Positions 3,085 to 57,076 of a stretch of DNA of 64,000 bases are shown piece by piece. Made by a program: the position numbers and the translations under genes. The stretch comes from Malania oleifera (Eukaryota > Streptophyta > Magnoliopsida > Santalales > Ximeniaceae). The notes under the pieces are model-generated. The model was not told the DNA's origin. It saw nothing but the letters and a program-made list of their open reading frames with translations, and did no database searches. The stretch spans positions 97,398,397 through 97,462,396 of the forward strand of contig NC_080423.1 of the NCBI RefSeq assembly GCF_029873635.1, given 5' to 3'. The first letter of the stretch is position 1. The number at the start of each line of letters is the position of its first letter.

Positions 3085-3787
3085 CTACATAACAATAAAA
3101 TCAAACCTTAAGTCCCACTAGGTGGGTCATTTATATAAATCTTTTCGAACCAATTATTTTGATAGATTTATAAATATTAAATTTTTATTTATTATCTCTT
3201 TCCTAGTTATTGTATGTCTACCTCTACCCCTTTTATTGTTCTCATAGTAACTAATTCACTCTTTCTCAATAATGTATTATACGACCTACATTACAAGTGC
3301 TCATACCATCTAAGTCATCACTCTCTTATCTTATCTTATTTTATATAGGAGTTATACCTAATTTACTACAAATATGTCCATTTCTTAATTTATCATTCAA
3401 TGTTATATCACTCATTCATCTAAGCATTCTCGTCTCGATAACGTTTACTTTTTGGATATTATGTTTCTTCATGGCCCAATATTCTGATCCATAGAGCATA
3501 ACTGGTCTTATAACTATCCTTTAAAACTTCTCATTCAATTTTAAGGGTATTCTACGATGACATAACATACTTAAAACATATCTCCATTTTACCCAATCTG
3601 CTTTAACTATATGCGTTATATCATCTTCAATTTCTCTTTCAGTTTACATAATAAATCCAAGATATCAAAATCTACAAATGTTATTTATTTCTTCATCATC
3701 ATCAAGTTTAACTTTGTCTCAAATATTCCTTCTATCATTACTAAAATTGCATTTCATATATTCTATATTTAGCTTCACTAATGATCT
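3085..3787 (-). mobile_element. RTE-type LINE remnant, 3' part
   Basis: On the minus strand the piece encodes the region just after the reverse transcriptase core (IRPVMLYGSEYWAMKK, then R-M-L-R and DKLRN), broken by several stops. It ends near 3090 with CCCACCTAGTGGGACTTAAG followed by a T-rich tail, the 3' end typical of plant RTE LINEs and the SINEs that share it. The Copia element at 3788 interrupts it; the upstream part resumes at 13815. The reverse transcriptase core is missing from both parts, so the LINE had lost its middle before or at the time of that insertion. Confidence 0.75.
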
Positions 3788-6010
3788 TGAAAAGTAAGGT
3801 GTAGTCTCAAGAGGGGAGGTGAATTGGATTATAAAAATTTATTTCAATTCATTTTAAGAATCTTTAACCTTCTTTTATTTCTTTGAACTAAATATTGACT
3901 AGTTTGTTTAATTCTTTAATCATTCAAGAACTTAGTTTTTTTAATTCAGTCAATCAACACAACTATGTAAACAACCAAACCAATCATTTAAGTAACCAAG
4001 TCAATCATCCACAATTTGAAAACAAACAACCAAATGATTTGCCAAGCACAAGTTACTTGTAGCACTTAAAATAGTTTGTTTGTTTATATAAGCCATGTAT
4101 ATATAAAATTTGTACTTGCTGATATAAAGTCCTGTATTGATTGTTTTGCTTCTTCAATATGATGTGCAATACAATATCCAATCAACACAATATCTACACT
4201 CTTCTCAATATTCAGAACTCAACTAAACTCTCAGTTAATTTATCATTGGGCATTTAACCAGGTAACGTACTCTCATATGGTTTCCGCATAGTATGGTATA
4301 ACCAACGTACTCCCTTTCAATTTTCGCAACCCAAATCAAAATTAGACTTCAAGTTTACTTGATTTCTATATTACATAGTATATATGATTATCAATTAAAC
4401 CATCCACGCAATTTAAATATGCTGAAAATAAAGAGTAAGGGAAAGAGAGAGTGAGACAGAGATTTTTACGAGGTTCGGCTTATACTCAGCCTACGTCGTC
4501 ACCTTTGGTAAACCACCAAATGATTCACTTAACCTGTTCCTTTTACGGGTGGAACAAACCTTTAAAACACTCTTTGCTTAATGCTAGAGCTCGCCTTCTC
4601 CAAACGATGTCTCTTCGTTCGGTCACTCCTTAACTAAGTTAGAGCCCGCCTCTTTAAGCAATATCCCCTTGCTTAGCCAACGATCCAAACAACCCTTGGA
4701 ATCGTCAATCTACAAGATACAAATCAAATATTTGTGTACAAAGAATTTGCTTTTAAAAGTGCTGATTAGTACAACAATTTAGAACTATAATATACTTTAA
4801 AGTAAATAATAATATGGAAATTAACTTGAATCTCAATGAAGTATATCATCGATTAATTCTTTCAATGATTGAAAGATTTAGAATTTGTAACACAATTCCG
4901 ATGGAAGAAGATCAGCAAAAACTTAGTTGAATTCGTGCAAGTTATGAGCAAGAGAGAGTCTTGAGAATTTGAGAGCAATTGAAAGAGATTTTGAATTTTT
5001 GCTGAATTTGAATTCCTGGTGTATTGATTCAATGATCTTTGAGGCTTATTTATAGACCTGAAAAATGTATATAACTTGATCCCCAAGTGACTTGGAGTAT
5101 TCCCCAAGTTTTCACAAAGTTTGAGCCCCAAGCAAACCATTTAAAAAATGTTTCAGTTTAACTTTTTAAAATTTTGTTCGAGTGGCAGTCGCCTGCCATG
5201 TTATTTTTTAAGGGGCAGTAGGGACAATAGCGTGACAGTCGCCTGCTAGGACACAGCCAGTCGCCTAGCTTGACCACCCAGGCGCCTGTCATGGTTCAGG
5301 CAGTCTATTGGTGGAACACAACACTGCTGTCAACTTTGAGTACCCTTTAGTCTTTTGGTCATAAAGTTTTTTGTATAACTCCAAATTTGACGAGCTTGGT
5401 GTCAAACGAAAGCTAAGATGAAATCCTACAACTTTCATGTTGAACACTTTTTAAAATAAGGAGTTTTGGATAGAAAAAAAATACACCTCAATGCAGAAGT
5501 AGAAAAATTAATAGCATTTGGAAAATCCTCTTTTTTGTGTTTTTCATTCCAAAAATGATTCTAACATTTTTGAAATAATTTTTGACCTTATAAAAATATT
5601 TTCTAAGTATATTAAAAGGTATCTAGGTCCAATAAATTAATCTCAGAGTTTCATGTATCTATATTGAAATTTTCTGAAGTACTTACATGAAATTTCCTAT
5701 AAATTCTTTCAAATTTTCAATTCTTGAATTTCTTGAGATTTTTATACTTGTTTCATCTTTCTTTGAGCTTTCATCAAGTTTTCTTTAATCATCATGCTCT
5801 CATGATCTTCAAACTTTATCTTTAAATCCATTTTTGAATCCATGCTTCAAGCTTCATATTGATCATCCTTTTTTGAAATATAAGCTTTCATGAATATTTT
5901 AACATTGCATTCATCATTGAGTCCTGAAAATACATCACTTAAATAAAGCATGTTAAGTTCTACTTGTTTGTTAGCATCAAAACAAAATGTTAAGCCTTGT
6001 AAGGCCAACA
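3788..6010 (-). repeat. 3' LTR (2223 bp) of the gag-only Copia element
   Basis: Left-hand copy of the LTR, starting TGAAAAGTAAGG and ending GGCCAACA on the plus strand. It contains the ACGAGGTTCGGC ... GCCTACGTCG inverted motif at about 4469-4500, which is related to a hairpin found in the other Copia LTRs here. It is the uninterrupted reference for recognising the insertion in the right-hand copy. Confidence 0.85.
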
Positions 6011-7300
6011 ATCTCCCCATTTTTCATGATGACAAATAAGAAGCAAAAATTAGAGTGAGCCTTAAATAAGTATCATCTTAACAATATTTGCAAGATCAAT
6101 ATCAATTTCAAAACCTCTTTTACAATCATGTTCATCACTATCAAATACTTCTCCTTTTGATATATATTATGTTCATACTTAGTTTTTGCAATTTGAAATA
6201 CTATGCTCAATGTTTGCTTTAAAACTTCTCCCCCTTTTGACAATGATTAAGTTCAAGTAAAATCACATGTTGAGCATATCATCAAACATGCGTATCAAAC
6301 ATATGAACACACTCAATTTATTATTTTTCAATATAGCATGTGTAGTGTGTTATAACATTCAAGTATATGAGCTGTAACTTCATTACTAATGGCTTTTTCC
6401 TTTAGACAATATTTAAGATTTCAATTGTTGATTTTATGATACCGATTTAAAATTGAATTCATGATATCTATTTAAAATTCATGATACCAGTTAAGAATTG
6501 ATACCAATTGAAAATTTAATTCATGATACCAATTGAAAATTCTCTAAATTGATTAACATGGAAACAATCATAATATAAGTAATATGACATAACACTCCCC
6601 TTGAATTCAATACAATCAGTTTTGTTATCAATTTTGCTTTCATCATCCTATATTTGAAAACATAGCTTCACATTATGTATCAAATATCAATATTATGCTC
6701 ATATCATCAATGTCATACCATGCTCATAGATATAATTATTCTTGTCATACTTAAAAAAACCAATTGATCTTTTAGATTGTGATACCAAATGAGCATTTAA
6801 AAAAAAAAAAAAAAAATTGTGATACCAATTAAAATTTTTAAAATGTGATACTAAAAATATTCATAAATACCAAAGACTTTATAGATACCAAAGTTATTAT
6901 CACATTTTGCATAACTCATGAATACCAATATAACCATTATATCTCTCATAACTCATGGATATCAATATAAAAAGCAGTAAGTCTATCCATGTAATTCATC
7001 AATAGCATGCATGATCAAAAATTAATCTCATATCAAAATTCATACTTATACTCAATAATCTCATGCTTAAATTTTCAACATAGTGAATCATAAATTTCAA
7101 TATAAGTCAAGCATATCATGTAGCATATCATATAGGCATGTAAGCATATAGCATCTCATATAATCATTCATTCTCAAACTTATCTTAAACTCTTCTTTAA
7201 GTTTTTTTATTTTAACTAGTTGTTTGTTGATCATGAATTAAGTTACTTTCTCAATTTTTAAAGGGAATGACTTAATCCATGGAGTTTTTTATTTATGAAC
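6011..7300. other. Non-coding interior of the gag-only Copia element
   Basis: AT-rich stretch in which a full-length Copia element would carry pol, but no pol motif was found on either strand. At 6410-6540 the phrase GATACCAATTGAAAATT recurs in diverged tandem copies. It may be residual 3' untranslated sequence of the element. Confidence 0.5.
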
Positions 7301-7307
7301 TAGTCTT

Positions 7308-7740
7308 TCATCTCGGTACCCATACTTTCTTGGGTCTAGTTGGTTTCATAAAGGATATTTCTTTAACTCTCCATATTTGTTTAGTTTTCACACATTTTCT
7401 CTTAAATGGACATTCAGACTTTATATGCCCATTTTTTTTACATTGATAGCATATGGTGTTAGTGTAAGCATTAAGGGATGTGCTTGCATTATCTTTGGAA
7501 GATTTTGAGAAATAATCCATGTAAAGATACCTTTTCTTTTTATTTTCAATTCCATTAAATCCAATGTCTTCTTTGTTTAGAGACATTCTTTAGGAGCCTA
7601 CCATTTTGTCAAATTTTGTTTTTCCTTTTGTAAAGTTATAAATGATATTTTCTTTATCTTTAATTTGATTTTTTAGATCATTTAACTCTATCTCTTTCTT
7701 GTTGTCAACCTTTTTAGTGTTTTTTATAATTTTAGAGATA
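7308..7740 (-). pseudogene. Second zinc-knuckle block of Copia gag
   Basis: The minus strand encodes CYQCKKNGHIKSEC, a CX2CX4HX4C nucleic-acid binding knuckle, followed by a basic segment ending KPTRPKKVWVPR. A VWVP-type ending after a second knuckle is what I expect of Copia gag proteins of the Sirevirus-like lineage; that lineage assignment is from memory and is an inference. The solo LTR at 7746-9628 separates this block from the rest of gag. Confidence 0.65.
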
Positions 7741-8639
7741 GTTTTTGTAACAACCTGCTTAATAAATTGATTTTTTTTCCACTGTAATAATTATCATACT
7801 CTGATACCGTAACATTATCCTAAGCAGCGAGAAGCATAATCATATAAACAAAACCTAAACCATTACATTCAATACCAGAGTTTCGAAATGTTTTGCAATA
7901 CATACAACATAACTGTATCCCCAAAAATGCCCTCAACTAGCTAGAGCTATACAAAATCATTCCCAAAAATGATACTCACTCTCTGATGGGGCACTACAGA
8001 AGCCCTCTATTTGTGAGCCTGATCTATTCGCCTACCCGAATCACCTGAAAAATATTTCAACATTGGGATGAGCCAACGCTCAGTAAGAGAAAATATGCTA
8101 TTACTAGTGTGTGGCAAATGAGCTACTACATATCATGAAATTTGTTTCATATAAACATGAATAACGGAGTACAGAAGTACAGTACAAGTAATAAAACACA
8201 CCACCCCTTTTCCCTATTGCTTAACATATTAGTATTATGATTATAATTCAAAATACTTCTAGTGTATATAGTAGGATCTCTGTTTCTGTAAATCAATACG
8301 TAAGTAATAGTAACTGAAACTGTTCCCTGTGGCTATCTGTGTCATGACATGCCCCTCATGACGAGGTTGTGTAGCCCGTAGGCTGGATTTACCCTGGCTG
8401 GCCAATCAGGAATAAATCACTGAACTTCGTCAGTCGACCTGCCCTCCTCAACCTATATCTGGATGGGGAGCTTAACCTCTTCAAAGGCCTAGGTGGTCGA
8501 CCGTACCACGTATATCTGAATTGGTAACATAGTTTCTGTAGCAATGATACCGTGCTCTGTAGCTGCAAGTCCAACAGGGTCTGATATCGTATAATATATT
8601 TCTATATGCATGTCTATCTGATTTACCATGATTATGAAG

Positions 8640-8870
8640 TACTGAAATAACCATGATACTGCATAACGTACTGAAATCTGAATAATCATAACATGGAACT
8701 GCATATTCGTAATACTAGAATTCGTGTTATCATGGTGCTGAAATTCATAAGATCATGATACTAAAATATCATAAAATCATGGTATTGAAATTCGTATAAT
8801 CATGGTACTAAAATGCATATAATCACAATTCTGAAATTCGTAAAATCATGAAATTAAATTCATAAACATA
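8640..8870. repeat. Degenerate tandem repeat inside the solo LTR
   Basis: Roughly 30-base units built on ATCATGGTACTGAAATTCG recur at least six times with substitutions. They lie in the part of the LTR downstream of its TATA box. Confidence 0.6.
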
Positions 8871-9360
8871 TCCCCGTACCATATACATAATCATAAGCCA
8901 CACCATACTAAAATACATAATTTTCGTAAATAAATAAACTGCATAATATTCAGAACTTTCCTAACATAGCATATTTCTCTTACCTTAACTCTGAAAAGCT
9001 CCTACTGTATTCTAGCTTGATACTCGCAGAGCCTTCTGCAAAACACCCTGAAACCAATATTTTCCAAAACTAAACATCAGTATTTTTCCGTCTATAACAT
9101 TTTCTCTAACTGCCACAAGGCCAAAAGGAGACTAAAAGGCCTTACCTTGAATTTGGGATGATTTCCAACTCTATTTTCCCGACGATCTGCTCCGACAGAT
9201 GCGTAGAGAACTCCGCCAGGAGCGTCATGGTAGCTTCGGATCGTCGATCAGGCGACTGGTGGGGCCGAAAATGAAGAAAGAAGGGAGAGAGAGTCGTAGA
9301 AGAGAGAGAGGAGAGAGAGAGAGAGCGGCAAGAGAATGAATAAAAAACCCGTCTTTCCAC

Positions 9361-9552
9361 TATTTATACAACCCGGCTCGTCGACGAGACACGTCGCCTC
9401 GTCAACGAGTTCTTCATTAAATTCGTCGACAAAGCCCTGTGTTCGTCGACGAAATTCTGAAGGCCTTCGTCGACGAAGCTTGGCAATTTCCTGTATTTTT
9501 AATTATTTAATATTATCTCCAAAATGCAATGTCGCGTTCGTCGACGAAGTCT
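9361..9552 (-). promoter_or_regulatory. LTR promoter: TATA box with TCGTCGACGA palindrome array
   Basis: Six copies or near-copies of the palindrome TCGTCGACGA lie between about 9378 and 9551, extended on both sides to CTCGTCGACGAG or TTCGTCGACGAA. They sit immediately upstream of a minus-strand TATAAATA (9368-9361). This is where enhancer elements of an LTR are expected. That they bind a factor is an inference. Confidence 0.6.
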
Positions 9553-9639
9553 ACGACCTCCTTCTATTTCAGTACCTATTTTCTCTCCCTCTTATTATTA
9601 TTAACATGCTATTATTCAGGTCACTACAGTTTTCTTATC

Positions 9640-11090
9640 TTATCCTCTAATTAATAAATATATATATGTATATATACATATATATTTCTTAAATTCTATA
9701 GAGTATAGGGATCGAAGGTCTTCTATCATCTTTTCATTTTTGCTTTCTAATTCTTTAATTTTTAAATCTTTTTCATTTTCAGCAAGATTTTTAGCTTCTA
9801 ACTTCTTTGTCATAGCTTCATTTTTACTTTTTATTTTTTTGATTCTAGAATTATTTTCTCTTTCTGCAGCCTTAAGGAATTCTAACTCTTTCTTTCTTCC
9901 TTCGTTCATATTTTTCAATGAAGTATTTTGTTTAGTTGCTTTAATTAGCATCTTATGAACTTTGTATAAATCATTTTGAAATTTTTCATAAGACGACATG
10001 CTCTCATCATCGGATTCATCACTACAAGAATTATTTAAAGATTTAGATGATGAACTTTCCTCATTGTCCCAAGCCATAAAACACGTATAAGCAATCTCTT
10101 GGTCACTTAATTCATTTTTTGAACTACTTGTACTCATCATGTCCCAAGTAGTGACTTTCATGGCATTTTTCTTTTTCTTCTTAGATTTTTTCTTTAGTAG
10201 TGGACATTCTGGTTTAATATGTCCGGTTTTGTTGCAATTGTAACACGTAGGAGTTTTATTCTTTGATATTTTGCTAACTTCTTCTTCTACTTCATCTGAT
10301 TCAAATTTAGATTTTCTTTTGAATTTATTTTTCCTTCTTAGAATTTTTGCTAGCTTTTTAGATATAAAGGTTACTTCATCTTCGTCAATTTCTTCTTCAT
10401 TACTTGAGTTCTCTTTTGAGGCTTTGAAGACTATTGTGTCTTGGGTTTTGGTTTTCCACTTTTTTCATTCATTGTCATTTCATATGTGAGTAAAGAACCT
10501 ATAAGCTCATCTAAAGAAGTGGTTTCCAGATTTCTTCCTTCCGTTATAGCAGTGACTTTTGGTTCCCATTTAGGTGGCAGCCTTCTAAGAATTTTCCTTA
10601 TCATCTCATAAGTAGTGTAGGTTTTTCCTAGTGCATTTGGGGAATTAATTATGTGAGTGAACCTAGTAAACACATTAGTTATGAATTCATCTGAATTCAT
10701 CTTAAAAGCTTAATTTTCACTTGTAAGCATATCGATCCTATTATTCCTAACATCTATAGTTCCTTCATATGTTACTTTTAGCTTGTCCCATATTTCCTTA
10801 ACTGATTTGCAAGTCATTACTCTATTAAATTCATTGGCATCTAAAGCATAATATAGAACATTCATAGTACTAGAGTTTATTTGTAATATTTTATAATCTC
10901 TTTCAGTCATGTCTTTCTTTTCCTTAGGTATTTGTTTTCCATCTACTAATGTGGTAGGAATTAGATCATCATCCGTGACAACCTCCCAAGCTTTCCAATC
11001 CATGGTTTGAAGTATATTTGATTTCTCTTTTTCCAAAATGTATAGTTGTGTCCACAAAAGATTGATGGTCTAGTTGAAGATTGTCCCTCT
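9640..11090 (-). pseudogene. Copia gag remnant (UBN2-type, knuckle and coiled-coil linker)
   Basis: Reading leftward from the primer-binding site: MDWKAWEVV near the N-terminus, a UBN2-like core with CKSVKEIWDKLKVTYEGT and IRKILRRLPPKWEPKV, a Glu/Lys-rich linker, the knuckle CYNCNKTGHIKPEC at about 10250-10210, then an acidic Ser-rich segment (ACFMAW-type) and a coiled coil. The block is decayed. Confidence 0.75.
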
Positions 11091-11176
11091 CCAAAGGGAG
11101 TTACGCCTAATTGAGTCATTTAGATCTTTTTATAACTACTAATTAAGATTTGCTATAACCCCTCTCTGATACCAAT

Positions 11177-13814
11177 TGAAAAGTAAGGTGTAATCCCAAG
11201 AGGGGGCGTGAATTGGATTATAATTTTTTTTTTAATTCCTTTTAATAATTTTTAACCTTCTTTTATTTCTTTGAACTAATTCTTGACTTGTTTGTTTAAT
11301 TCTTTAATCACTCAAAAACTTAGTTCTTTTAATTCAATCAATCAATACAACTATGTAAACAACCAAGCAACCAAATCAATCATTCAAGTAACCAAGTCAA
11401 TCATCCACAATTTGAAAGCAAACAACCAAATGATTTGCCAAGCACAAGTTACCTGCAACACTTAAAATAGTTTGTTTGTTTATATAAGCCCTGTATATAT
11501 AAAATTTGTATTTGCTGATATAAAGCCCTGTATTGATTGTTTTGCTTCTTCAATATGATGTGCAATACAATATCCAATCAACACAATATCTACATTTTTC
11601 TCAATATACAGAACTCAACTAAACTCTCAGTTAATTTATCTTTGGGCATTTAATCAGGTAACGTACTCTCATATAGTTTCCGCATAGTATGGTATAACCA
11701 ACGTACTCCCTTTCAATTTTCGCAACCCAAATCAAAATTAAACTTCAAGTTTACTTGATTTCTATATTACGCAGTATAGATGATTATCAATTAAACCATC
11801 CACACAATTTAAATATGTTGAAAATAAAGAGTAAGGGAAAGAGAGTGAGACAGAGATTTTTACGAGGTTCGGCTTGTTGGGCTTTTGTGGAGCCTAGTTG
11901 TGTCTTAATTTGGATGACGACCCAACCTCTGTTTAATTAGAGATTCCTAACCTAAGGCTTAGTCCATGGAGCGAAGGCTTGGGCCGGAAAATTTTTTGGA
12001 GCCCATTCGGAACGGAACCCTAGGCGCAACATATAAAAAGGGTGCTTTCGGGTGATTAGTGTTTGCGTGGTTGTATCCGCGAGAGAGAGCGAGAGCGAGA
12101 GAATTGTATCGCCGCACTCTTTGTGCTTTCTTCCTGATAATATTGAAATCCCTGCAACTCCGTGGACGTAGGCAAAATTGCCGAACCACGTAAATATTGT
12201 CTTGTGCGTGTGATTGAATTTTTTTTCTTTGGCGTTATTCTTTCTCTATTTGTTTCTCACAGGTTTAAACCCAGCCTCTGTTGTTGCCTTTGGCAAACCA
12301 CCAAATGATTCACTTAACCTGTTCCTTTGACGGACGGAACAAACCTTTAAAACACTCCTTGCTTAATGCTAGAGCTCGCCTTCTCCAAACGATGTCTCCT
12401 CGTTCGGTCACTCCTTAACTAAGCTAAAGCCCCCCTCTCTAAGTAATATCCTCTTACTTAACCAACGATCCAAACAACCCTTGGAAACGTCAATCTACAA
12501 TATACAAATCAAATATTTGTGTACAAAGAATTTGCTTTTAAAAGAGTTGATTAGTACAACAATTCAAAACTATAATATACTTCAAAGTAAATAATAATAT
12601 GGAAATTAACTTGAAGCTCAATGAAGTATATCATCGATTAATTCTTTCAATGATAAAAAGATTTAGAATTTGTAGCACAATTCCGGTGGAAGAAGATCAG
12701 CAAAAACTTAGTTGAATTCGTGCAAGTTGAGAGCAAGAGAGAGCCTTGAGAATTTGAGAGCAATTGAGAGAGATTTTGAATTTTTGTTGAATTTGAATTC
12801 CTGGTGTATTGATTCAATGATCTTTGAGGCTTATTTATAGACATGAAAAAGGTATGTAACTTGATCCCCAAGTGACTTGGAGTATTCCCCAAGTTTTCAC
12901 AAAGTTTGAGTCCCAAACAAACTAGTTAAAAAATGTTTTCGTTGAGCTTTTTAAAATTCTGTTCGAATGGCAGTCGCCTGCCACAATCTGGCAGTTGCAT
13001 GCCACGTTATTTTTAAAAAGGAAATAGGGACAGTAGGGTGACAGTCGCCTGCAAAGACACAGCCAGTCGCTTGGCTTGACCACCCAGGCGCCTGTCATGG
13101 TTCAGGTAGTCTACTGGTAGAACACAACACTGTTGTCAGCTTTGAGTACCCCTCAGTATTTTGGTCATAATATTTTTTTTATAACTCCAAATTTGACGAT
13201 CTTGGTGTCAAACGAAAGCTAAGAGAAAATCCTACAACTTTCATGTTAAATACTTTTTAAAATAAGGAGCTTTGGATATAAAAAAATACACTTCAATATA
13301 GATATAGAAAAATTAACAACATTTGAAAAATCCTCTTTTTTGTGCTTTTCATTCCAAAAATGTTTCTAACATTTTTGAAATAATTTTTGACCTTATAAAA
13401 ATATTTTCTAAGTATATTAAAAGGTATCTAGGTCCAATAAATTAACCTAAGAGTTTCATGTATTTATATTGAAAATTTTGAAGTACTTACATGAAATTTC
13501 ATATAAACTCTTTTAAATTTTCAATTCTTGAATTCCTTGAGATCTTTATGCTTGCTTCATCTTTCTTTGAGCTTTCATCAAGTTTTCTTTAATCTTCATG
13601 CTCTCATAATCTTCAAACTTTATCTTTAAATCCATTTTTGAATCCATGTTTCAAGCTTCATATTGATCATCCTTTTTTAAAATATAAACTTTCATGAATT
13701 CTTTAACCTTGTATTCATTATTGAGTCGTGAAAATACATCACTTAAATAAAACATGTTAAGTTCTACTTGTTTGTTAGTATTAAAACAAGATGTTAAGCC
13801 TTATAAGGCCAACG
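11177..13814 (-). repeat. 5' LTR of the gag-only Copia element, carrying a solo LTR
   Basis: Right-hand LTR, collinear with 3788-6010 apart from about 390 extra bases at 11875-12266 that come from another Copia family. After removing that piece its length matches the left LTR. It is followed directly by the GATCT duplication. Confidence 0.85.
11875..12266 (+). mobile_element. Solo LTR of the same Copia family as the element at 36617-41504
   Basis: It starts TGTTGGGCTTTTGTGGAG and follows the 36617-37033 LTR closely, including the TATAAAA box and the CGTGGACGTAGGC ... GCCGAACCACG hairpin at 12161-12190. The last 25 or so bases of the family LTR are not recognisable. The host sequence on both sides is continuous with the uninterrupted LTR at about 4480. 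The insertion point falls in the loop of that host LTR's own hairpin motif. Confidence 0.8.
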
Positions 13815-14290
13815 GATCTTTTTTGCATTTTTTTTACCTCTTTATACTTTTCAAAGTTTGATATGTTTTTACAATTTTGCCACGTTTTATACTAAATTTA
13901 TTTTGTTTTTATGACTTTTTTAACATCTTTATCTCACTACCAACTTTCTTTTCTATTTAAGAATCTTCCCCTTAATTTACCTAAAATCTCTTTTGTTATC
14001 TTTTTAATAGAGCTAACTAATCTACTCCAAAGAGTATTTGTATCTATCTCATTCTCTATAGTCCAATCCTCATCTTTGATCATTTTATCTTTAAATTTTA
14101 TTATATTTTATCCTTTCAGGTTCCACCGCCTAGTTATCTTATACTGATTTATTTTATCATTTTTCTTCTATTTTTTGATACATATATCTAACACTAAGAC
14201 TCTATGTTGTGTGGTTAGGCTTTTACCTGTAATAACTTTACAATCATTGTATGATAAATGATCTACCCTCCTAATTAAAAAAAAAAATTT
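13815..14290 (-). mobile_element. RTE-type LINE remnant, upstream part
   Basis: The minus strand encodes the linker between endonuclease and reverse transcriptase (RRWNLKG, DKMIKDEDW, ITKEILGKLRG), which in RTE LINEs precedes the reverse transcriptase. It is the other side of the piece at 3085-3787; the GATCT duplication sits at the junction. No complete 5' end was identified. Confidence 0.65.
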
Positions 14291-29794: not shown

Positions 29795-30462
29795 TGTTGG
29801 GAGAGATATCAATAAACAACCACAACGGAATAATTCTTCTCCCTATATGCAAGCAAATGTAGTGTATCTCTACTTTTATACGTGTTGAAAATAATAAGAA
29901 AAATAATCAATCACACCAAGCTACAAGAATACAAGCAATTTTTTACGAAGAAAACTTCCCCAGTGTGAGGAAGAAAAACCACGGGACCTAGTCTAGTTGA
30001 AATTTCCACTATAAATCAAATAATGGGTATACAAAGTCTTTTCTAATCGTAATTAGAGGACACAAATATCTCTCATCAAGATATCAACAATCTTGACAAA
30101 TACAAAGAGAATTGGAGAGAATATACCAAATTCGCGGTTACTGTTCACGGGAAAAAATCTCAACTCCCGAGCTTCAAATCCGATTTCCACCGTTCAGATT
30201 GTAGCTCCTTGAGTTGTGAACCTCTCCTCCAAATTTCAGATCAATCGGATCACAGACGAAACGGGATCGGAGTCTTAATGAAATCTGGTCAGCATGAGAA
30301 AAATCACTTTTTTCTCTCTTTCTTTTGAGAAGTGACGACTCCTCTCTTCTCCCTTCTCTTTTTATAACTTCCTTTAGGTTTTCACACTAAAAGAACTGAA
30401 CTTTGGGCGTTTATTAAAAGCCCACTTGGACTTTCCTCCATATGGAAGGAAATAACCCAACA
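29795..30462 (-). repeat. 3' LTR of the Copia element at 29795-35141
   Basis: 668 bases from TG to CA, directly after the CTTCG duplication. It aligns end to end with 34483-35141. Confidence 0.9.
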
Positions 30463-33400
30463 AATCTCCCCATTTCCAACTATATGGAGGGAATCGCCAT
30501 CCCGGCGATCAAACAACAAACATCAAGCTTCTCCCTTTGTAGTGTCTTTGTCAACATATCAGAACCATTATCATTGTGTGAACCTTCTCAAGTTCCAATA
30601 ACTTATCGTTCAACGCATCTCTGATTCAATGGTAGCGTACATCAACGTGCTTCGATCTTACATGGAAACTGGAACTCTTAGCAAAATGAATAACACTCTG
30701 ATTATCACAAAACAACACATACCTTTGCTGCTCAAAACCAAGTTCTCTCAAGAACTTCTTTGCCCATAGCATTTCTTTAGTCGCTTTCGTTGCTGCAATA
30801 AACTCTACCTTTATCGTAGAAAGAGTAATGCACTTCTGAAGTTTCGATTGCCAAGCTATAGCCTCACCTGCAAAAGTTATCAAATAGCCCGAAGTAGACT
30901 TACGAGTATCCACATCCCCAGCCATATCTGCATTTGTGGAGCCAACTAACAATGGTTGTCCGTTTCCCAAACCAAGTCTCAAACTAGAAGTTCCTCAAAG
31001 ATACCTCATGATCCACTTCACTGCATTCCAATGCTCTCTTCCCGGATTTGACAAGAATCGGCTAACTACACCAACTGCATAGGTTATATTTGGTCTTGTG
31101 CAAACCATTACATACATCAAACTTCCTACTACTGAGGTGTAAGGAACTCTTTCCATGTCTTCATTTTCCTTATCTGTAGAAGGACATTCCTTTGTACTTA
31201 GTCTGAAGTGGGTAGTAAGAGAAGAGCTAACCACTTTAGCTTTGTCCATATTGAACCTCTGAAGCACTTTCTCAATGTACTCCTCCTGTGACAAATATAA
31301 TTTCTTGGCACTCCTGTCACGACTGATTCTTATGTCAAGAATTTTCTTTACTGGCCCCAAATCCTTCATACCAAATGACTTACTCAATTGCTACTTGAAC
31401 TGGTCAATCCTTGAAGCATTCCTGCCAATAATTAGCATGTCATCCACATAAAGTAGCAAAAAAATAAAATCATTATCAGAGAATTTTTGAACAAATACAT
31501 AGTGATCTGAAGTTGTCTTCTTGTAGCCTTGTTCTCCCATAATAGACTCAAACTTCTTATACTACTGTCGTGGTGCTTGTTTCAAACTATATAGGCTTTT
31601 CTTCATCTTGCACACATAATCCTCTTTCCTTTTCACTCTGAAACCCTCTGGCTGCTTCATATAAATCTCTTCCTCCAAATCACCATGAAGGAAGGCAGTT
31701 TTCACATTCATCTGCTCAACTTCCAAGTCAAGAGTAGCTGCTAAGTCGACTACTGTATGGATCGATGACATCTTTACAATTGGAGAGAAGGTCTCATCAG
31801 AGTCAATACCTTTTCTCTGACCAAACCCTTTTACAACCAATCTAGATTTGTACCGTGGCCGTGAAGAGAACTCATTTGGCTTCTTCTTGTAAATCCACTT
31901 GTTCTCTAAAGCTCTTTTTCCTTTAGGCAGCTTCACTAACTCAAAGGTGTGGTTATCATGCAATGACTGCATCTCATCTTGCATGGCCTCAACCCACTCT
32001 GTCTTGTGTTCATTTTCCATGGCTTCTACAAAACACTGGGGCTCTCCCCCGTCAGTCAATAACACATATTGTTCTGCTGAATACCAAGTGGAAGGATGTC
32101 GATCTTTGGCTGACTTCCTGGATGGAATCTCTGGTGGAATCTCTGGCACTGTCAACTGCTCATCAGTCTCAACATCTCTTTGAACCTGTAAGGGAACATC
32201 CATATCACCTCTACTCTGATGGTCATCCTGAACATCATTTTTAACTTGAGATGAAAAATTCTTCAAAGGAATTGGAGCCACATCAGTCAAATTGTCACCC
32301 TCCTGAGACAGATTTCTCTGCCTTCTCAATATCCTGAATCGTCTGATCTTCTACAAACACGACATTTCTGCTTCTCACAATTTTCTTCTCAACTGGATCA
32401 TAAAGCTTCTCACAATTTGCTTCTCATCAAGTTTGGACGTTTCATCTTTTGGAATATGTACAAATGCTTTGCACCCAAAAACACGCAGATGATTATAGGA
32501 AACATCCTTATCTATCCAAACTTGGTCTGACACATCAAACTGTAGAGGAACACAGGGTGTAAGATTCAACACATGAACAACAGTGCTCAATGCCTCCCCC
32601 CAAAAAGATTTTGGTAATCGGGCTTGTGAAAGCAAACATCTCACTCTCTCAAGCATTGTTTTGTTCGTCCTTTCTGCTATGCCATTCAATTGAGGAGTTT
32701 TCAGAGGAGTCTTTTGATGTTAAATACCCTACTGTCTGCAATACTCATAAAATGGACTAGAATACTCTCCACCGTTATCAGTCCGGATGCACCTCAGTTT
32801 CTTCCCAGTCTGTCTCTCAACTGGGTTTGAAATTTCTTGAACTAAGCCAACACTTGGTCTTTTGACTTTAAGATATATACCAACAACTTCCTTGAATGAT
32901 CATCTATGAAGGTCATTAAGTATCTGGAGCCACCAAGTGTTCTTGTCTTCATAGGGCCACAAATATCCGAATATACCAAATCCAGTATCTCAGACTTTCT
33001 CGAATGAGGGGAATTCTTGAAGGAAACTCTGCTCTGCTTCCCTGACAAACAATGAGTATACCTTTTCAGAAGTGTACTTTTCAGTCCACATAGTAGACTT
33101 TTCGTCCCCAATAGAGCTAATCCTTTCTCACTCATGTGATTCAGTCTCTTGTGCCACAACTCTGCTATACCATTATCCTCCATTGCATTAACAATGTCGT
33201 TGGAGATCTTTGCTTACAGAATGTACAATGCAAAGTGCTTCATGCCTCGACCCACAACCATAGCACCTCTGGTGAGCTTCCACTGGCCATTACTGAAAGT
33301 GCTGCAATACCCTTCGTGATCAAGTTTACCTACAGAAATCAAATTCAAACGAACGTCAGGAATACGCTTCACATCTCTAAGAACTAAACTCGTGACATTA

Positions 33401-34482
33401 TTTGTCTTCAGATACACATCCCCAATTCCAATGACTTTAACCAAGCCATCATTTCCCATCTTTACTGTTCCAAAGTCACCAGATCTATAGGATGTAAAGA
33501 AATCCTTCTGAGATGTAGCATGAATGGAGGCACCACTGTCAATCACCCAACTAGTCTCATGATATGCAACATTTATCATCTCGTCATCATAAATAATGAG
33601 GAATTCCGCAGGAGTGGTAGTAGCAACTCTATCATCACCATCTTTGTTATCTCCATTCTTCGTTCCCTTCCCTTTCTCATTATTGTTTTATTTCTTCAAT
33701 TGCTTGCAATATTTCTTGATGTGTCCCTTTTTCCTGCAATGATGACACTCAACATTTGCAAACTTGTTGGACTTGCTCCTGCTGTTACCTTTGTTCTTCA
33801 GACCTCTACTCTTACTTCTCCCCCTATTTTCTGTAACCAAGATCTCTAATTGTGAAGGGAATTCCTGTGTTTTTCTTCTCATCTCTTCATTTAGCAAACA
33901 ACTCTTTGCCATATCCATCGTAATTACACCTTCTGGAGCGGAGTTAGATAATAAAGTTCTGAGCGTCTCCCATGAGTTTGATAATGAACCAAGCAACCAT
34001 AACCTTTGTATCTCATCATCAAACTTAATACTCATTCCAGCCAACTGATTAATAATTCCTTGGAATGTATTCAGGTGATCAGATAAAGGAGTCCCATCCT
34101 AGTACCTCAAAGCCATCATTTGTTTAATCAGAAACAACTTATTATTTCCAGTCTTTCTAGCATATAACTGTTCAAGCCTACTCCATAGAGAACGTGCATT
34201 TGTCTCTCCACTAATATGGTTCAAAACATTATCATCTACCCATTGCCTGATATACCCACACACCTGTCGATGTAACAAAGTCCATTCCACATCACACTTT
34301 TTTTTTCTGGTTTTTAGCACTAAATATCGGTAGGTAATAATCTTTCACATAAAGAAGATCCTCCATTTTTCCTTTCCATATCTGATAATTTAAACCATTG
34401 AGATTAATCATTCTACTAGTATTTGCTTCCATAACTCAAACTGCCAACCTGACAATCTGTCAACCGGGCTCTGATATTACTT

Positions 34483-35141
34483 TGTTGGGAGAGATATCAA
34501 TAAACAACCACAACGGAATAATTCTTCTCCCTATATGCAAGCAAATATAGTGTATCTCTACTTTTATACGTGCTGAAAATAATAAGAAAAATAATCAATC
34601 ACACCAAGTTACAAAAACACAAGCAATTTTTTACGTGGAAAACTTTCCCAGTATAAGGAAGAAAAACCACGAGACCTAATCCAATTGAAATCTCCACTAT
34701 CAATCAAATAATTGGTACACAAAGTCTTCTCTAATCGTAATTAGAGGATACAAATATCTCTCATTAAGATATCAACAATCTTGGCAAATACAAAGAGAAT
34801 TTGAGAGAATATACCAAATTTGCGATTACTGTTCACGGGCAAAAATCCCAACTCCCGAGCTCCAAATCCGATCTCCACTGTTCAGATTGTAACTCCTTGA
34901 GTCGTGAACCTCTCCTCCAAATTTAAGCTCGATCGGACTACAGACGAAGCGGGATCGGAGTCTTGATGAAATCTAGGCAGCATGAGAAAAATCACTTTTT
35001 TCTCTCTTTCTTTTGAGAAGTGACGACTCCTCTCTTCTTCCCTTTCTTTTTATAACTTCCTTTAGGTTTTCACAGCTGGGCTTTGGGCTTTTAATAAAGT
35101 CCACTTGGGCTTTTCTCCACATGGAAAGAAATAACCCAACA
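34483..35141 (-). repeat. 5' LTR of the Copia element at 29795-35141
   Basis: 659 bases from TG to CA, followed by CTTCG. The Met-type primer-binding site abuts its left end on the plus-strand map. Confidence 0.9.
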
Positions 35142-36616: not shown

Positions 36617-37033
36617 TGTTGGGCTTTTGTGGAGCTTAGTTGTGTTTTAATTTGGATGCTGACTTGACCCTTATTTAGTTAGAGATTTCTATCGATACAA
36701 GCCGTACTCGTGGGGGTTCGGGGGCAACGCCCTCGGGAAAATTTTGGAGCCTATTCGGAACGGAACCCTAGGCGCAACATATAAAAGGATTGCTTTCGGG
36801 TGATTAGGGTTTGCGTGGTTGTACCTGCAAGTGAGCGAGAGGGAGAGCATTGTATCGCCGCACTTTCTGTGTTTTCTTCCTGATAATATTGAAATCCTTG
36901 CAACTCCGTGGACGTAGGCAAAATTGCCGAACCACGTAAATATTGTCTTGTGCGTGTGATTGATTTTTCTTTGGTGTTATTTTCTCTATTTTGTTTCTCA
37001 CAGGTTTCGGGAATTTGTTGTTTATTCCTAACA
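36617..37033 (+). repeat. 5' LTR of the Copia element at 36617-41504
   Basis: 417 bases from TG to CA. It contains TATAAAAGG, an R-region hairpin at 36908-36936, and sequence shared with the solo LTR at 11875-12266. Confidence 0.92.
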
Positions 37034-40000
37034 ACTAGTATCAGAGCCTAGGGTTAGGTTCGAGTGGGAGCAATGGCAGAGGAAGCAGGAAAGGCGTCTG
37101 GAATAGAAAAGGTTGATGGCACAAACTTTGGATTCTGGAGGATGCAGATCGAGGATTATCTCTATGGGAAGAAGTTACATCTACCGCTTCTAGGAGAAAA
37201 ACCTGCTACTATGAAGGACGAGAAATGGACTCTCCTTGACAGACAGGTATTGGGAGTTATAAGATTAACTCTGTCCAGGTCTGTTGCACACAATATCGTG
37301 AAGGAGAAAACTACAGCAGATCTGATGAAGGCTTTGTCTGGTATGTATGAAAAACCATCAGCAAATAACAAGGTACATCTGATGAAGAAATTATTTAATT
37401 TACAGATGGCAGAAAACGCATCTGTAGCACAACATCTGAATGAGTTCAATACTATCACAAATCAATTATCGTCGGTAGAAATTGATTTTGATGATGAGAT
37501 TCATGCACTGATCATTTTGGCTTCGTTGCCAAACAGTTGGGAGGCAATGAGGATGGCAGTAAGCAACTCTACTGGAAAGGAAAAACTGAAGTATAATGAT
37601 ATACGGGATTTAATTCTGGCTGAGGAGATTTGCAGAAGAGATGCAGGCAAAACCTCAGGATCCGGCTTTGCCCTAAACCTTGAGATCAGAGGCAGAGTTA
37701 ATGACCGAAATTCAGATCAGGGTAGATCAAAATCCAGAAATTATAATCGAAACAAAAGTAAATCCAGACCTGGCCAAAAGGGACAATGCTGGAATTGCAG
37801 GAAAACGAGTCACTTTAGTAGACAATGCAAAAGTCTTAAGAAGAAGAGTGAGGATGATTCTGCTAATGCTGTAATAGAAGAGGTACAAGATGCACTACTT
37901 CTTGCAGTAGACAGTCCACTTGATGATTGGGTTTTGGACTCAGAAGCTTCCTTTCATACTACTTCACACCATGAAATTATACAGAACTATGTAGCAGGAG
38001 ATTTTGGTAAGGTGTATTTGGCTGATGGTACAGCCTTGGATGTTGTGGGTATGGAAAACGTTCGGATGTCATTGCCAAATGGGTCTGCTTGGTTACTAGA
38101 GAAGGTACGACATATTCCTGACTTGAGAAGGAATTTGATTTCTGTCGGACAGCTTGATGATGAAGGGCATGCGATGCTGTTTGCTGGTGGCACTTGGAAG
38201 GTTACAAAGGGAGCCAGAGTATCGGCTCGTGGAAAGAAATCTGGTACTCTATACATGACCTCAAGTCCAAGAGATACAATTGCAGTTGCTGAAGCAAGTA
38301 CTGATACAAGCTTATGGCACCGCAGACTTGGTCACATGAGTGAGAAGGGGATGAAGATGCTGCTGTCAAAAGGGAAACTACCGGAATTGAAGTCCGTTGA
38401 TTTTGACTTGTGTAAAAGCTGCATCTTAGGAAAGCAGAAAAGGGTGAGTTTCTTGAAAAGTGGCAGAACACCGAAGGCTGAAAAATTGGAGTTAGTGCAC
38501 ACAGATTTATGGTGTCCTTCTCCTATTGCATCCCTTGGGGGTTCAAGGTACTACGTTACTTTCATTGATGACTCGACCTGAAAGGTATGGGTTTATTTTT
38601 AGAGAAATAAATATGATGTATTTGAAACTTTTAAGAAGTGGAAGGCTATGGTTGAGACAGAGACAGGTTTGAAAGAAAAGTGTTTGAGGTCGGACAACGG
38701 AGGAGAGTACATAGATGGAGGGTTCAGAGAGTATTGTGCTACACATGAAATCAAAATGAAAAAGACCATTCCTGGGACACCACAGCAGAATGGTGTGGCT
38801 GAGCGCATGAACAGAACTCTCAACAAGCATGCTAGGAGTATGAGGCTACATGCTGGACTACCAAAAACTTTCTGGGCTGATGCTGTCAGTACTGCAGCTT
38901 ATCTAATAAACCGAGGACCTTTAGTTCCCATGGAGTTTAGACTTCCTGAAGAGGTTTGGAGCGATAAAGAGGTAAATTTTTCTTACTTAAAAGTTTTTGG
39001 TTGTGTTTCTTATGTTTATGTTGATTCTAATACTCGTAGTAAACTTCATGCAAAGTCCAAAGTATGCTATTTCATTGGCTATGGTGATGAGAAATTTGGC
39101 TATAGGTTTTGGGATGAACAAAACAAGAAAATCATCAGAAGTAGAAATGTGATATTTAACGAACAGGTTATGTACAAGGACAGGTCAACCGTAGTATCAG
39201 ATGTCACAGCGATAGACCAGAAAAATTCTAAGTTTATTAACTTGGATGAGTTGACTGAAAATACTGTCCAGGAAAGGGGTGAAGATGATAGGGAGAGTGT
39301 AGAATCGCAGGAAATTCAAATTACACTTGTAGCTGCGGTCCGTAAATATTTCAGGGCCACTAGACCTCCACAGCGTTATTCACATGCTTTAAATTATCTT
39401 CTACTAACTGATGGTGGTGAGTCAGAATGTTATGATGAAGCCTTGTAGGACAAAAGTTCAAGCAAGTGGGAGTTAGCCATGAAGGATGAGATGGACTCCT
39501 TGTTGGGGAATCAGACATGGGAACTAACTGAATTGCCAATAGGGAAGAAGGCTCTGCACAACAAGTGGGTATACAGAATAAAGAACGAACATGATGGTAG
39601 CAAGAGCTACAAAGCCAGATTAGTTGTCAAAGGATTTCAGCAAAAGGAAGGCATTGACTTTACAGAAATATTTTCTCTAGTTGTGAAGATGTCAACAATT
39701 AGATTGGTACTGGGAATGGTAGCTGCAGAAAATCTACATCTTGAGCAGTTAGATGTGAAAACGGCATTCCTTCACGGTGACTTGGAGGAAGACATCTACA
39801 TGATTCAGCCAGAAGGGTTCATTGTCCAGAGACAAGAGAATTTAGTTTGCAAACTGAGAAAGAGCTTGTATGGTCTAAAACAAGCTCCAAGACAGTGGTA
39901 TAAGAAGTTTGATAGTTTTATGCATAAAATTGAGTTCAAAAGATGTGAAGCTGATCACTGTTGTTATGTTAAGTTCTTTGACAATTCTTATATCATTTTA

Positions 40001-41062
40001 TTGCTATATGTAGATGATATGCTTATTGCAGGGTCTAGCATTGAGGAGATTAATAATCTAAAGAAGCAATTATCAGAACAGTTTGCAATGAAGGATTTGG
40101 GAGTTGCAAAACAAATCCTTGGAATGAGAATTATTAGAGACAAGGCTAATGGTACATTGAAGCTTTCACAGTCAGAGTATGTGAAAAAAATTCTCAGCAG
40201 ATTTAACATGAATGAATCTAAACCAGTGAGCACACCCTTGGGTAGTCATTTCAAACTAAGCAAGGAACAGTCACCGAAGACAGAAGAAGAAAGGGACCAT
40301 ATGAGCAAGGTGCCCTATGCTTCAGCTCTTGGTAGCTTGATGTATGTTATGGTGTGTACAAGGCCAGACATTGCACACGCAGTGGGAGTTGTGAGCAGAT
40401 TCATGAGTAGGCCAGGAAAGCAGCATTGGAAGGCAGTAAAGTGGATTCTGCAATATCTGAGGGGTTCATCAGATACATGTCTTTGCTTCACTGGTGCAAG
40501 TTTGAAACTGCAAGGTTATGTAGACGTTGATTTTGCCGGTGATAATGATAGTAGAAAGAGTACTACTGGATTTGTATTTACTTTGGGTGGTACAGCTATA
40601 TCTTGGGCTTCAAATTTGCAAAAGATTGTTACTTTGTCTACTACAGAAGCTGAGTATGTTGCGGCAACTGAAGCTGGAAAGGAGATGATTTGACTACATG
40701 ATTTCTTAGAAGAATTGGGTAAAAAGCAGAAGATGGGCATTCTACACAGTGACAGTCAGAGTGCAATCTCTCTTGCCAAAAATTCGGCTTTTCATTCAAA
40801 GTCGAAACACATACAAACAAAATACCACTTTATCCGTTACCTTGTTGAAGATAAACTGGTAATACTTGAAAAGATATGTGGATCTAAGAACCCAGCAGAC
40901 ATGTTGACTAAGGGTGTTACTATTGAGAAACTGAAGCTGTGTGCAGCTTCAGTTGGTCTTCTAACTTGAGGAGAGGAGGTTGAGTTGCAAGGATGAGGGA
41001 TTGTTTGTTTAGGAGGATTGCGGTTGATACTGGTGATTAAACTAGTCTCCAAGTGGAAGATT

Positions 41063-41504
41063 TGTTGGGCTTTTATGGAGCCTAGTTGTGTTTTAATTTG
41101 GATGCTGACCTGACCCTTATTTAATTAGAGATTTCTATCCTAAGGCTTAGTCCATGAGCGCTGCGGCTTGGGCCGTACAAGCCGTACTCGTAGGGGTTCG
41201 CCCCCGGGAAAATTTTGGAGCCTATTCGAAACGGAACCCTAGGCGCAACATATAAAAGGATTGCTTTCGGGTGATTAGGGTTTGCGTGGTTGTACCTGCG
41301 AGAGAGCGAGAGGGAGAGCATTGTATCGCCGCACTCTCTGTGTTTTCTTCCTGATAATATTGAAATCCTTGCAACTCCGTGGACGTAGGCAAAATTGCCG
41401 AACCACGTAAATATTGTCTTGTGCATGTGATTGATTTTTCTTTGGCGTTATTTTCTCTATTTTGTTTCTCACAGGTTCTGAGAATTTGTTGTTTATTCCC
41501 AATA
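41063..41504 (+). repeat. 3' LTR of the Copia element at 36617-41504
   Basis: 442 bases, aligned with the 5' LTR over its whole length and followed directly by GAGAG. The same hairpin is at 41379-41407. Confidence 0.92.
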
Positions 41505-46126: not shown

Positions 46127-46421
46127 CTACACACAAATCATGAGGAAATGTTTTTAGATGAAGCCTAGGAGTCCAAAAACTTGGCACCAATTTCTCCTGT
46201 TTTGACTCACAAAAATTTGCTCCAAACTCTCATTAGTACAATTAATTTCTCCCAAAGCCTCTATTCACTAAAGAGGTTATTAAAGAAATACTCCGCATAA
46301 GATTGACTATGCATTTGATAATATTTTTAAGCATGCAGACTAAAGATAACGGATTAGATTCTAATTAACAGAAAAAGATCAAGTTAAACTACAATTATAC
46401 CATATCAGATTGGCCTACAAC

Positions 46422-47114
46422 CAAGGCCTTAAATTTTGATTTTGATTCAAATTTCGAAGCTCCAAAAGTACGGAAATTTCGACGTAAATTTCAATTTTAA
46501 TATCAATTTCGATTTTGATTAAAAAAAAATGGAAATTAATAGTAAAGCATGGAATTCTTTTATGAAGTTTTATAAATGATTAATAGACATAATAAGTTTT
46601 AGGACTAATATTACAAGTAAATACATTTATGTTGTGTATGAGGTGGAAAAGTTGTAATATAATATGTATAAGATAATGTACATTAAACATATTTAGTGAA
46701 TCAATTGAAACAAATGAAATACATAAACCATTTAAATATTATTTATTATACAAATAATGATAATTTAGACATGAATGGTTAAATAAAATGCCATTGTAAG
46801 TTTATTTTTTCATATAATTTCAAAAGCACTTGTAATAATCTTTAGTTTCGATAAACAATAAATAAAATAAATAAAGAGAGAAATTTCACTTCACCATATC
46901 TTTCATTTGAATTCCAAGGAAATTTCATTGCATAGTTCAAATTTTGACAAGATTAGCTAAAATTTTTGAGATTTCGATAAATTTCGGATGATTCGTTGAG
47001 ATTTCGACGGAAATTATGCAAGATGGAAATCAATTGCCATTTCGATTTTGAGGGTGACAAAAACCAGAAATTTCAACAGAAATTTTGACAATTTTGTGGA
47101 AATTTAAGATCATG
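46422..47114 (+). mobile_element. hAT-type MITE (693 bp) upstream of VTE4 exon
   Basis: The ends CAAGGCCTTAAATTT and, inverted, CATGATCTTAAATTT form terminal repeats. The flanking 8 bases CCTACAAC and CCTACAAT (46414-46421 and 47115-47122) differ at one base. It is packed with GAAATTTCGA-type motifs near both ends. It is the same family as 56262-56938, in opposite orientation. It lies about 300 bases upstream of the first visible VTE4 exon. Confidence 0.85.
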
Positions 47115-56261: not shown

Positions 56262-56938
56262 CATGGTCTTAAATTTTCACGAAATTGTCGAAATTTCCGA
56301 TTTCCATCACCCTCGAAATAGAAATGGCAGTCAATTTCCATCTTGCATAATTTCCATCGAAATCTCAACGAATCATCCGAAATTTATCGAAATCTCGAAA
56401 TTTGTCAAAATTTTAACTATACAATGAAATTTTATCAGAATTTAAATGAGAGATGTAAGAGTGAAGTGAAATTTCTCTTTTAATTTATTTTATCGAAACA
56501 AAAGATTATTACAAGTTCTATTGAAATTATATGAAAAAATAAACTTACAGTAACATTTTATTTAGCCATTCATGTCTACATTATCATTATTTGTATAAGA
56601 AATAATATTTAAATTATTTATGAATTTCATTTGTATTAACTGAATATGTTTAATGTGCATTATCTTACAAATATGTTTGATACCCATACTATTTTACAAC
56701 TTTTCCACCTCATACAAAACAAAGATGTATTTAATTTGTAATATATTAGTCCTAAAATTTATATTATTATGTTTGTTAACCATTTCTAAAGTTTCACAAA
56801 GAATTTCACGCTTTACTACTAATTTCAGTTATTTTTTCAAATCGAAATCGAAATTGACATCGAAATTGAAATTTTCGTCGAAATTTCCGTAATTTTGGAG
56901 CTTCGAAATTTGAGTTGAAATCGAAATTTAAGACCTTG
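56262..56938 (-). mobile_element. hAT-type MITE (677 bp), inverted copy of 46422-47114
   Basis: The ends CATGGTCTTAAATTT and, inverted, CAAGGTCTTAAATTT form terminal repeats. The exact 8-base duplication GTTTTGAT flanks it (56254-56261 and 56939-56946). The arms are rich in CGAAATTT motifs. There is no transposase. With a perfect duplication this copy looks younger than the one at 46422. Confidence 0.9.
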
Positions 56939-57076
56939 GTTTTGATGAAGTTTAAAAACATTGACAGTAAAATTCTAATTACTCTCGTGAAGAATATTTC
57001 ACCCTCATTACAAATGTTTGTGTGGAAATATATACAAGTATACAAAATCTATTCTAGGAATGAAAGTTAAAAATAA

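Follow-up and report, generated by a model that had tools for sequence, protein, structure and literature searches.

Within a 64,000-nt stretch of the Malania oleifera genome (contig NC_080423.1, positions 97,398,397 to 97,462,396; hereafter the window), we analyzed a long terminal repeat (LTR) retrotransposon that lies on the minus strand and spans window positions 3788-13814. This copy is very probably a decayed member of a high-copy, non-autonomous Copia family of the Sirevirus lineage that has kept gag and lost pol. The functions missing from the family are protease, integrase, reverse transcriptase (RT), and RNase H. The most likely reading is a non-autonomous family of the TR-GAG type that supplies gag and depends on pol-bearing Sireviruses to move it in trans.

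Anatomy of the element

An initial annotation, made from the sequence alone, had described the ends, primer-binding site, polypurine tract (PPT), and GATCT duplication of this element as readable. Direct reading and comparison of the two LTRs confirmed all of these signals. The features are as follows, with the strand given where it applies:

3783-3787: target-site duplication GATCT, left copy (sequence read)
3788-6010, minus strand: 3' LTR, 2223 bp, TG...CA in sense (LTR-pair comparison)
6011-6020, minus strand: AT spacer (6011-6012) and polypurine octamer ATGGGGAG, adjoining the 3' LTR
6011-7307, minus strand: 3' interior, ~1.3 kb, no coding trace found (stops; tblastn)
7308-7589, minus strand: C-terminal gag piece ending at a stop, second CCHC knuckle at ~7407-7451 (Pfam; open reading frames, ORFs)
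9634-10464, minus strand: gag middle, first CCHC knuckle at ~10201-10248 and Lys/Glu-rich linker (Pfam; ORFs)
10431-11069, minus strand: gag UBN2 capsid core (Retrotran_gag_2) with one in-frame stop (Pfam; ORFs)
11164-11174, minus strand: primer-binding site, sense TGGTATCAGAG, 2 nt inward of the 5' LTR
11177-13814, minus strand: 5' LTR, 2638 bp including a 390-bp insert (LTR-pair comparison)
13815-13819: target-site duplication GATCT, right copy (sequence read)

In sense, the order is primer site, UBN2 core, knuckle 1, charged linker, knuckle 2, stop, 1.3-kb interior, and polypurine tract. Pfam detected Retrotran_gag_2/UBN2, which marks a Copia-type gag, in two pieces free of stops (E = 3.6e-9 and 7.8e-11) and zf-CCHC in two other such pieces (E = 2.2e-6 and 1e-4); the coiled coil of the linker was judged by eye. 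One forward frame of the 3' interior holds 37 stops. The two LTRs are 92.9% identical (2054 matches, 158 mismatches; Kimura two-parameter distance, 0.076), and the outermost base of the 5' LTR is C in sense, giving CG where TG is normal. The primer site, which we take to be of the initiator tRNA-Met type, was present in the exact form TTGGTATCAGAG in 16 of 29 loci picked by their gag.

The pol-less interior recurs across the genome

To look for pol, we took 15 ORF pieces of gag and pol from three other Copia elements of the window as tblastn queries (E up to 1). Those at 29795-35141 and 36617-41502 (LTR pairs 90.6% and 86.9% identical, recognizable gag-pol ORFs) served as pol controls. No pol was found in 3788-13814, where the search returned three knuckle matches (E = 1.4e-4, 0.006, and 0.035) and three others at E of at least 0.49; as a positive control, the 15 query pieces matched one another at E down to 3e-155. 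With UBN2 and two knuckles recognized by Pfam and no pol by tblastn, the earlier statement that gag blocks alone occur between the LTRs was upheld.

The initial annotation had proposed finding other copies with these LTRs and asking whether they, too, have a pol-less interior with matching junctions. We searched the host assembly (1.494 Gb, 510 contigs); in each of these searches only the best 40 or 150 places were scored, out of candidates numbering from hundreds to tens of thousands. With the LTR as query, 29 of the 40 scored places (window included) matched from base 1 to 2221/2222. With the 3' interior as query (best 40 of 3,855 candidates, window included), 32 places were full length and 8 were partial. 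From this search, 29 loci other than the window were compared, picked because they contain the 3' interior. The LTR joined the 3' interior no more than 44 nt from the expected place in 28 of them (L036 fails), the spacing from 3' interior to knuckle 2 was 872 to 923 nt in all 29 (895 in the window copy), and a junction of knuckle 2 with the linker (-77 to 62 nt) was present in 28 (L023 fails). The order LTR, interior, gag without pol, with the same junctions, was thus found again in 28 of these 29 loci.

A second set of 29 loci was picked by gag alone; their sequence was too short to reach the 3' ends. Knuckle 2 was present with 242 to 370 nt beyond it in 26 of them, and tblastn found no pol within that stretch. 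Among 68 loci, pol was detected by tblastn between gag and the 3' LTR in none. The pol matches that did occur were an antisense integrase outside the LTR (L002), a locus resembling an LTR lodged inside another element's RT (L006), and an RT fragment outside the 5' LTR (L052).

The spacing of LTRs gave a similar picture. From 65 LTR starts we obtained 13 same-strand pairs within 25 kb. Five pairs were 5474 to 5622 nt apart, and the window pair (7389 nt) comes to 5501 nt when its 1888-nt insert is subtracted; the remaining pairs were spaced at 6380 nt (one), 7330 nt (one), and 13.4 to 22.9 kb (five). We sampled three of the long-spaced five, reading 2.2 to 3 kb of each, and found no pol in those stretches. 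One (L069) has the same 3' interior, with a gag-like ORF from another element nested in it (16.7 bits for Pfam Retrotrans_gag, under the 24.1 cut-off; by eye, of Gypsy type). Another (L073) has gag followed by a 3' ORF, with no pol in the 2.2 kb read, and the third (L074) has a gag cut short and fused to LTR-like sequence.

Open frames around the best 150 scored matches reached at most 594 amino acids for knuckle 2 and 640 for UBN2, whereas 38 of the 150 scored Copia RT matches lay in frames of at least 1000 amino acids. By this measure, the gag of the sampled family ends before any pol. The proximity of gag to RT was uninformative, with no pair within 12 kb where 0.36 were expected (best 150 per list). 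In viral contigs, no relative of one 119-amino-acid gag piece was found.

Sequence marks suggest a Sirevirus affiliation

Within Copia, membership in the Sirevirus (SIRE/Maximus) lineage is indicated by several marks. The portions of the cited articles available to us, here and below, describe Sireviruses as having a PPT octamer set 10 bp away from the 3' LTR, an AT/TG attachment site, and about four PPT octamers on average in the linker (PMC2829016), together with a large gag with a CCHC knuckle and an inverted repeat around the PPT (PMC2829016, PMC6317226). The octamer of the window copy, ATGGGGAG, is one mismatch from the Sirevirus octamer AGGGGGAG, and its AT/TG is exact. Across 28 related copies, octamer and AT/TG were both exact in 10, and 16 had one to three octamer mismatches; one copy had an exact octamer and an altered LTR start, and one lacked the octamer. 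In the 1.3 kb next to the 3' LTR, and counting the terminal one, 1 copy had no exact octamer, 8 had one, 9 had two, and 10 had three. These counts of 0 to 3 per copy are below the published average of four; the window copy has one, at 225 nt. The inverted repeat around the PPT holds at 13 of 16 positions in the window copy, a value equalled by 1 of 2000 shuffles (with the 16-mer picked by eye), and at 15 of 16 positions in a pol-bearing relative. Of the features expected of a Sirevirus gag (large size, a central CCHC knuckle, and a coiled coil downstream), the family's gag has the size and the knuckle, together with a putative coiled coil judged by eye. Unlike Sirevirus/SIRE/Maximus elements as described, the window element has no pol.

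Pol-bearing relatives and a second pol-less variant

A pol-bearing element of the same layout was read on C9 in three pieces (L070, L071, and L072). Its gag runs UBN2, knuckle, linker, knuckle (two zf-CCHC stretches in Pfam) and is followed by a stop and then the start of protease; L070 contains gag and then a protease match. The C9 UBN2 is 49% and 70% identical to the two UBN2 pieces of the window element. The cis signals of the two elements also resemble each other: the U5 end plus primer site are 78% identical over 67 bp, and at the PPT junction with the attachment site the identity is 86% over 37 bp. The double knuckle, which the initial annotation had offered as a possible novelty, is therefore not peculiar to the pol-less family, as pol-bearing L070 has the two-knuckle gag too. 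As the sequences read, the loss of pol starts near the end of gag. At a second place, C12:31459855, a UBN2 match (77% amino acid identity), RT, and a 3' ORF follow in order on one strand, and a 701-base read between UBN2 and the ORF includes RT/RNase H sequence (E = 4e-20).

A second pol-less variant carries an ORF between gag and the 3' LTR:

L073:337-1437 (C3): PF20167-like ORF
L075:535-1570 (C4): PF20167-like ORF

Two pieces from L073 score 32.5 and 34.5 bits against Pfam PF20167 (putative plant transposon protein; E = 9.7e-8 and 2.3e-8), short of its curated cut-off of 45 bits; a single literature search found no paper linking the title phrase of PF20167 to retrotransposons. L075 continues the gag locus L043, and its ORF is followed by several polypurine tracts and then the start of the 3' LTR, with no pol match below E = 0.1. 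L043/L075 seems to have an LTR of only ~420 bp, with similarity to the window LTR along 173 bp at one end. All 40 scored places (best 40 of 2,647 candidates, among them L073) contain ~1.5 kb of the ORF region. An RT match on C4 precedes the ORF by 1.9 kb, and a UBN2 match on C12 precedes it by 5.1 kb. Among the best 150 per list, five same-strand pairs linked UBN2 to the 3' ORF (at 2414, 2472, 4108, 5090, and -8477 nt), and no pairs linked knuckle 2 to it. Many SIRE elements have an extra 3' ORF (PMC6317226), to which the ORF of this variant probably corresponds. Taken together, the arrangements suggest a series from gag-pol-ORF through gag-ORF to gag alone. Behind the gag stop, the gag-picked loci (L040-L068) are a mosaic, some of the window type and some of the ORF type, and L041, L042, and L057 combine pieces of both, which suggests template switching.

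Selection on gag

We compared the ratio of nonsynonymous to synonymous changes between variants common to at least three copies (older) and singletons (younger), with statistics that treat sites as independent. In five gag data sets, the older variants were poorer in nonsynonymous changes (P values from 6.6e-9 to 4.8e-4), with odds ratios of 0.25 for UBN2, 0.39 and 0.32 for knuckle 1 plus linker, and 0.26 and 0.30 for knuckle 2. Controls read in the same frame, two from the 3' interior and one from the LTR, gave odds ratios of 1.55, 0.82, and 0.67 (P = 0.33, 0.69, and 0.17). The contrast between codon positions was significant for the linker sets (P = 2e-4 and 5e-4), and singletons were evenly spread over codon positions.

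The signal was also present in a restricted set of 28 copies that share the pol-less interior, of which 27 (linker) and 28 (knuckle 2) passed the coverage filter. For linker plus knuckle 2, nonsynonymous and synonymous changes stood at 145:116 among older variants versus 322:81 among singletons (odds ratio, 0.31; P = 4.2e-11), and at 48:28 versus 199:29 when only transversions were counted (odds ratio, 0.25; P = 1.2e-5). Sharing thresholds of 2, 4, and 6 gave odds ratios of 0.29 to 0.40 for all changes. Nonsense variants were shared versus singleton in 2 versus 24 cases in the linker and 0 versus 7 in knuckle 2.

Gag thus seems to have been maintained in working order as the pol-less family grew in number, with each copy decaying freely once it had inserted. 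Plant non-autonomous elements can be numerous, and whether their kept gag works is usually uncertain. Here, the contrast between older and private variants, with its controls, indicates that gag stayed useful after the loss of pol in a Copia lineage. The question of who makes the capsid becomes testable in the Malania oleifera genome.

A model for movement in trans

The initial annotation had suggested a family that supplies a capsid and is moved by partners, a proposal that fits the selection test on gag, with movement in trans as its presumed step. That the family transposes at all is probable from its copy number and from the same test. In our model, family transcripts would be translated into Gag, which would build particles around family RNA and perhaps around helper RNA too. 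Pol-bearing Sireviruses may supply Gag-Pol in trans; this helper Gag-Pol would join the particle, and its enzymes would carry out reverse transcription from the tRNA-Met site and integration with 5-bp duplications. Gag may also prefer the RNA that encodes it, and such cis-preference would best explain the selection on gag. A broader division of labor is possible but tentative: abundant gag-only and gag-plus-3'-ORF elements (L043/L075 and L073) would act as capsid suppliers and fewer pol-bearing elements as enzyme suppliers, with selection retaining gag in the partners that lack pol.

Several points weigh against the reading of a gag-supplying family moved in trans. No direct helper was found; the LTR body of the C9 element is unlike that of the family (1.2 and 1.3 kb read), and the UBN2 identity between them is 49 to 70%. 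Only best-scoring places were sampled, and the first 29 loci were chosen for containing the 3' interior. In the selection test, shifted frames of the control segments (odds ratios, 0.49 to 1.15) came as low as P = 0.057, and P values of 0.036, 0.047, and 0.067 arose when coding segments were read in shifted frames. The codon-position contrast was weak for UBN2 (P = 0.086) and for knuckle 2 (P = 0.042; 0.091 in gag-picked loci). Part of the selection signal could have been imported by recombination with pol-bearing relatives.

One potential explanation of a different kind is that this is a single family whose pol-bearing members share these LTRs and were missed because only the best matches were scored. 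The order of UBN2, RT, and 3' ORF on one strand at C12:31459855 and the five long-spaced LTR pairs speak for it. The three long-spaced pairs that were sampled showed no pol in the 2.2 to 3 kb read of each, however, and the pol-less copies would remain non-autonomous even so; we regard this explanation as rather unlikely.

The family may also consist of passive passengers, in which gag is a leftover, helper Gag and Pol do the moving, and the selection signal is inherited from ancestors that had pol or acquired through template switching. Pol-bearing relatives with homologous gag are present, and the mosaic behind gag indicates that recombination occurs between copies. Passive carriage does not readily account for a selection signal within copies that share one pol-less interior, nor for nonsense variants that are almost all singletons, and we consider it improbable.

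Selection on gag alone cannot separate help from interference, and truncated Gag acts as a restriction factor in yeast Ty1. A Gag that chiefly interferes with helper elements is nevertheless very unlikely here, as the family amplified to many copies with full replication signals, which requires working particles. Finally, deletions of this kind are common in plant genomes and the window copy is decayed in other respects, but an ordinary autonomous copy that alone lost pol by a private deletion, the case that the initial annotation had named as its refutation, is barely credible. It was rejected because 28 of the 29 other loci picked by the 3' interior show these pol-less junctions too and 5 of 13 LTR pairs have a matching overall length.

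Later insertions and other features of the window

Two insertions entered the window copy of the gag-only family:

7741-7745: GTTTT duplication of the nested solo LTR, left copy (sequence comparison)
7746-9628: nested solo LTR, 1883 bp, of a different abundant repeat, with its own GTTTT duplication
9629-9633: GTTTT duplication of the nested solo LTR, right copy (sequence comparison)
~11876-12265: LTR-like insert, 390 bp, inside the 5' LTR (similarity to neighboring Copia LTRs)

The nested solo LTR starts TGTAACAACC, finishes GGTCACTACA, and sits in the coding part of gag between the linker and the second knuckle. Several other copies match it from base 1 to 1883 (best 40 of 18,161 candidates). 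The site is empty in 54 of 58 related loci, with L023, L055, L056, and L065 not measurable there, and the insertion is private to the window copy. The gag of this copy is broken by the nested solo LTR, by the in-frame stop, and by a frameshift (frame change near 10431-10464). The 390-bp insert shares 83 to 84% identity with the LTR pair of the 36617-41502 Copia element; a clean duplication was sought around it, and none was found.

By eye, a motif like ACGAGGTTCGGC...CCTACGTC is visible in the LTRs and, as its reverse complement, in the LTR-like insert (4470-4500 and 12150-12180) and in the LTR of the C9 Sirevirus (L071, ~740-790); it is possibly a common LTR motif. The 3' interior has short imperfect repeats of GATACC-type units at 6437-6542 (44 nt at 86%).

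Elsewhere in the window, two minus-strand ORFs are gene-like: the one at 2462-2989 resembles the N terminus of what is presumably an alanyl-tRNA synthetase, and the one at 45768-46229 resembles what we take to be a tocopherol methyltransferase. The minus strand also carries a Copia pol remnant in several stop-free pieces (57342-60504) and ORF pieces that by eye resemble the reverse transcriptase of a long interspersed nuclear element (53444-55163). An inverted pair of ~700 bp, 79.8% identical, lies at 46419-47114 and 56262-56941.

Comparison with known systems

As used by Inpactor, TR-GAG denotes elements with two LTRs and only GAG or GAG plus protease inside (PMC6022998). The window element has two LTRs with a target-site duplication and a gag-only interior that recurs in its relatives. 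A large retrotransposon derivative (LARD) was ruled out, as gag is present by Pfam and apparently selected, whereas a LARD has no coding domain. The BARE-2 type, in which gag is lost and pol is kept, was likewise ruled out, since here gag is kept and pol was not found.

The initial annotation had considered that a Copia version with very long LTRs might be undescribed. The LTRs are indeed very long here and in the 29 of 40 scored LTR places that include the window; one gag-plus-ORF copy (L043/L075) has LTRs of only ~420 bp, and nothing found argues that long LTRs set a separate kind apart. The novelty of a Copia version did not hold either, as the available portions of two articles already report such elements. 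ATCOPIA63 AT5TE33540 of Arabidopsis is a Copia TR-GAG whose transposition was observed (PMC8704663). Like the window element, it is non-autonomous, has two LTRs and gag as its sole coding domain, and has a pol-bearing relative in the genome. It differs from the window family in that transposition of the latter is presumed, and in the Sirevirus marks, 2.2-kb LTRs, many copies, and measured gag selection found here. RLC_Giselle of barley, also a Copia family, lacks RT and integrase and has a potentially intact gag; it is paired with pol-bearing RLC_Inga through a conserved primer-site region (PMC5738225). We liken the window family to this pair by description only, and no selection test appears in that description. 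No dedicated description of a pol-less Sirevirus was found in the open-access literature. Copia gag-only elements are thus already described, and the window family is a well-evidenced further example rather than a new kind.

Gag-supplying partnerships are described in wheat (PMC11302176, PMC9744471), where the gag-only RLG_Quinta is moved by pol-bearing RLG_Cereba (PMC11302176). As described there, primer site and LTR ends are shared, gag is strongly diverged, and lineages are mosaic, much as in the window family; Quinta and Cereba are centromere specific and, unlike the window family, belong to the Gypsy superfamily. In Arabidopsis Athila, whole families without pol carry gag or gag plus env ORFs, with purifying selection reported (PMC2410132). 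Athila is very close in logic, including its gag and gag-plus-ORF variants, and differs in being Gypsy. If the tentative division of labor is true, these Sireviruses would be the Copia counterpart of the Athila and Cereba/Quinta systems.

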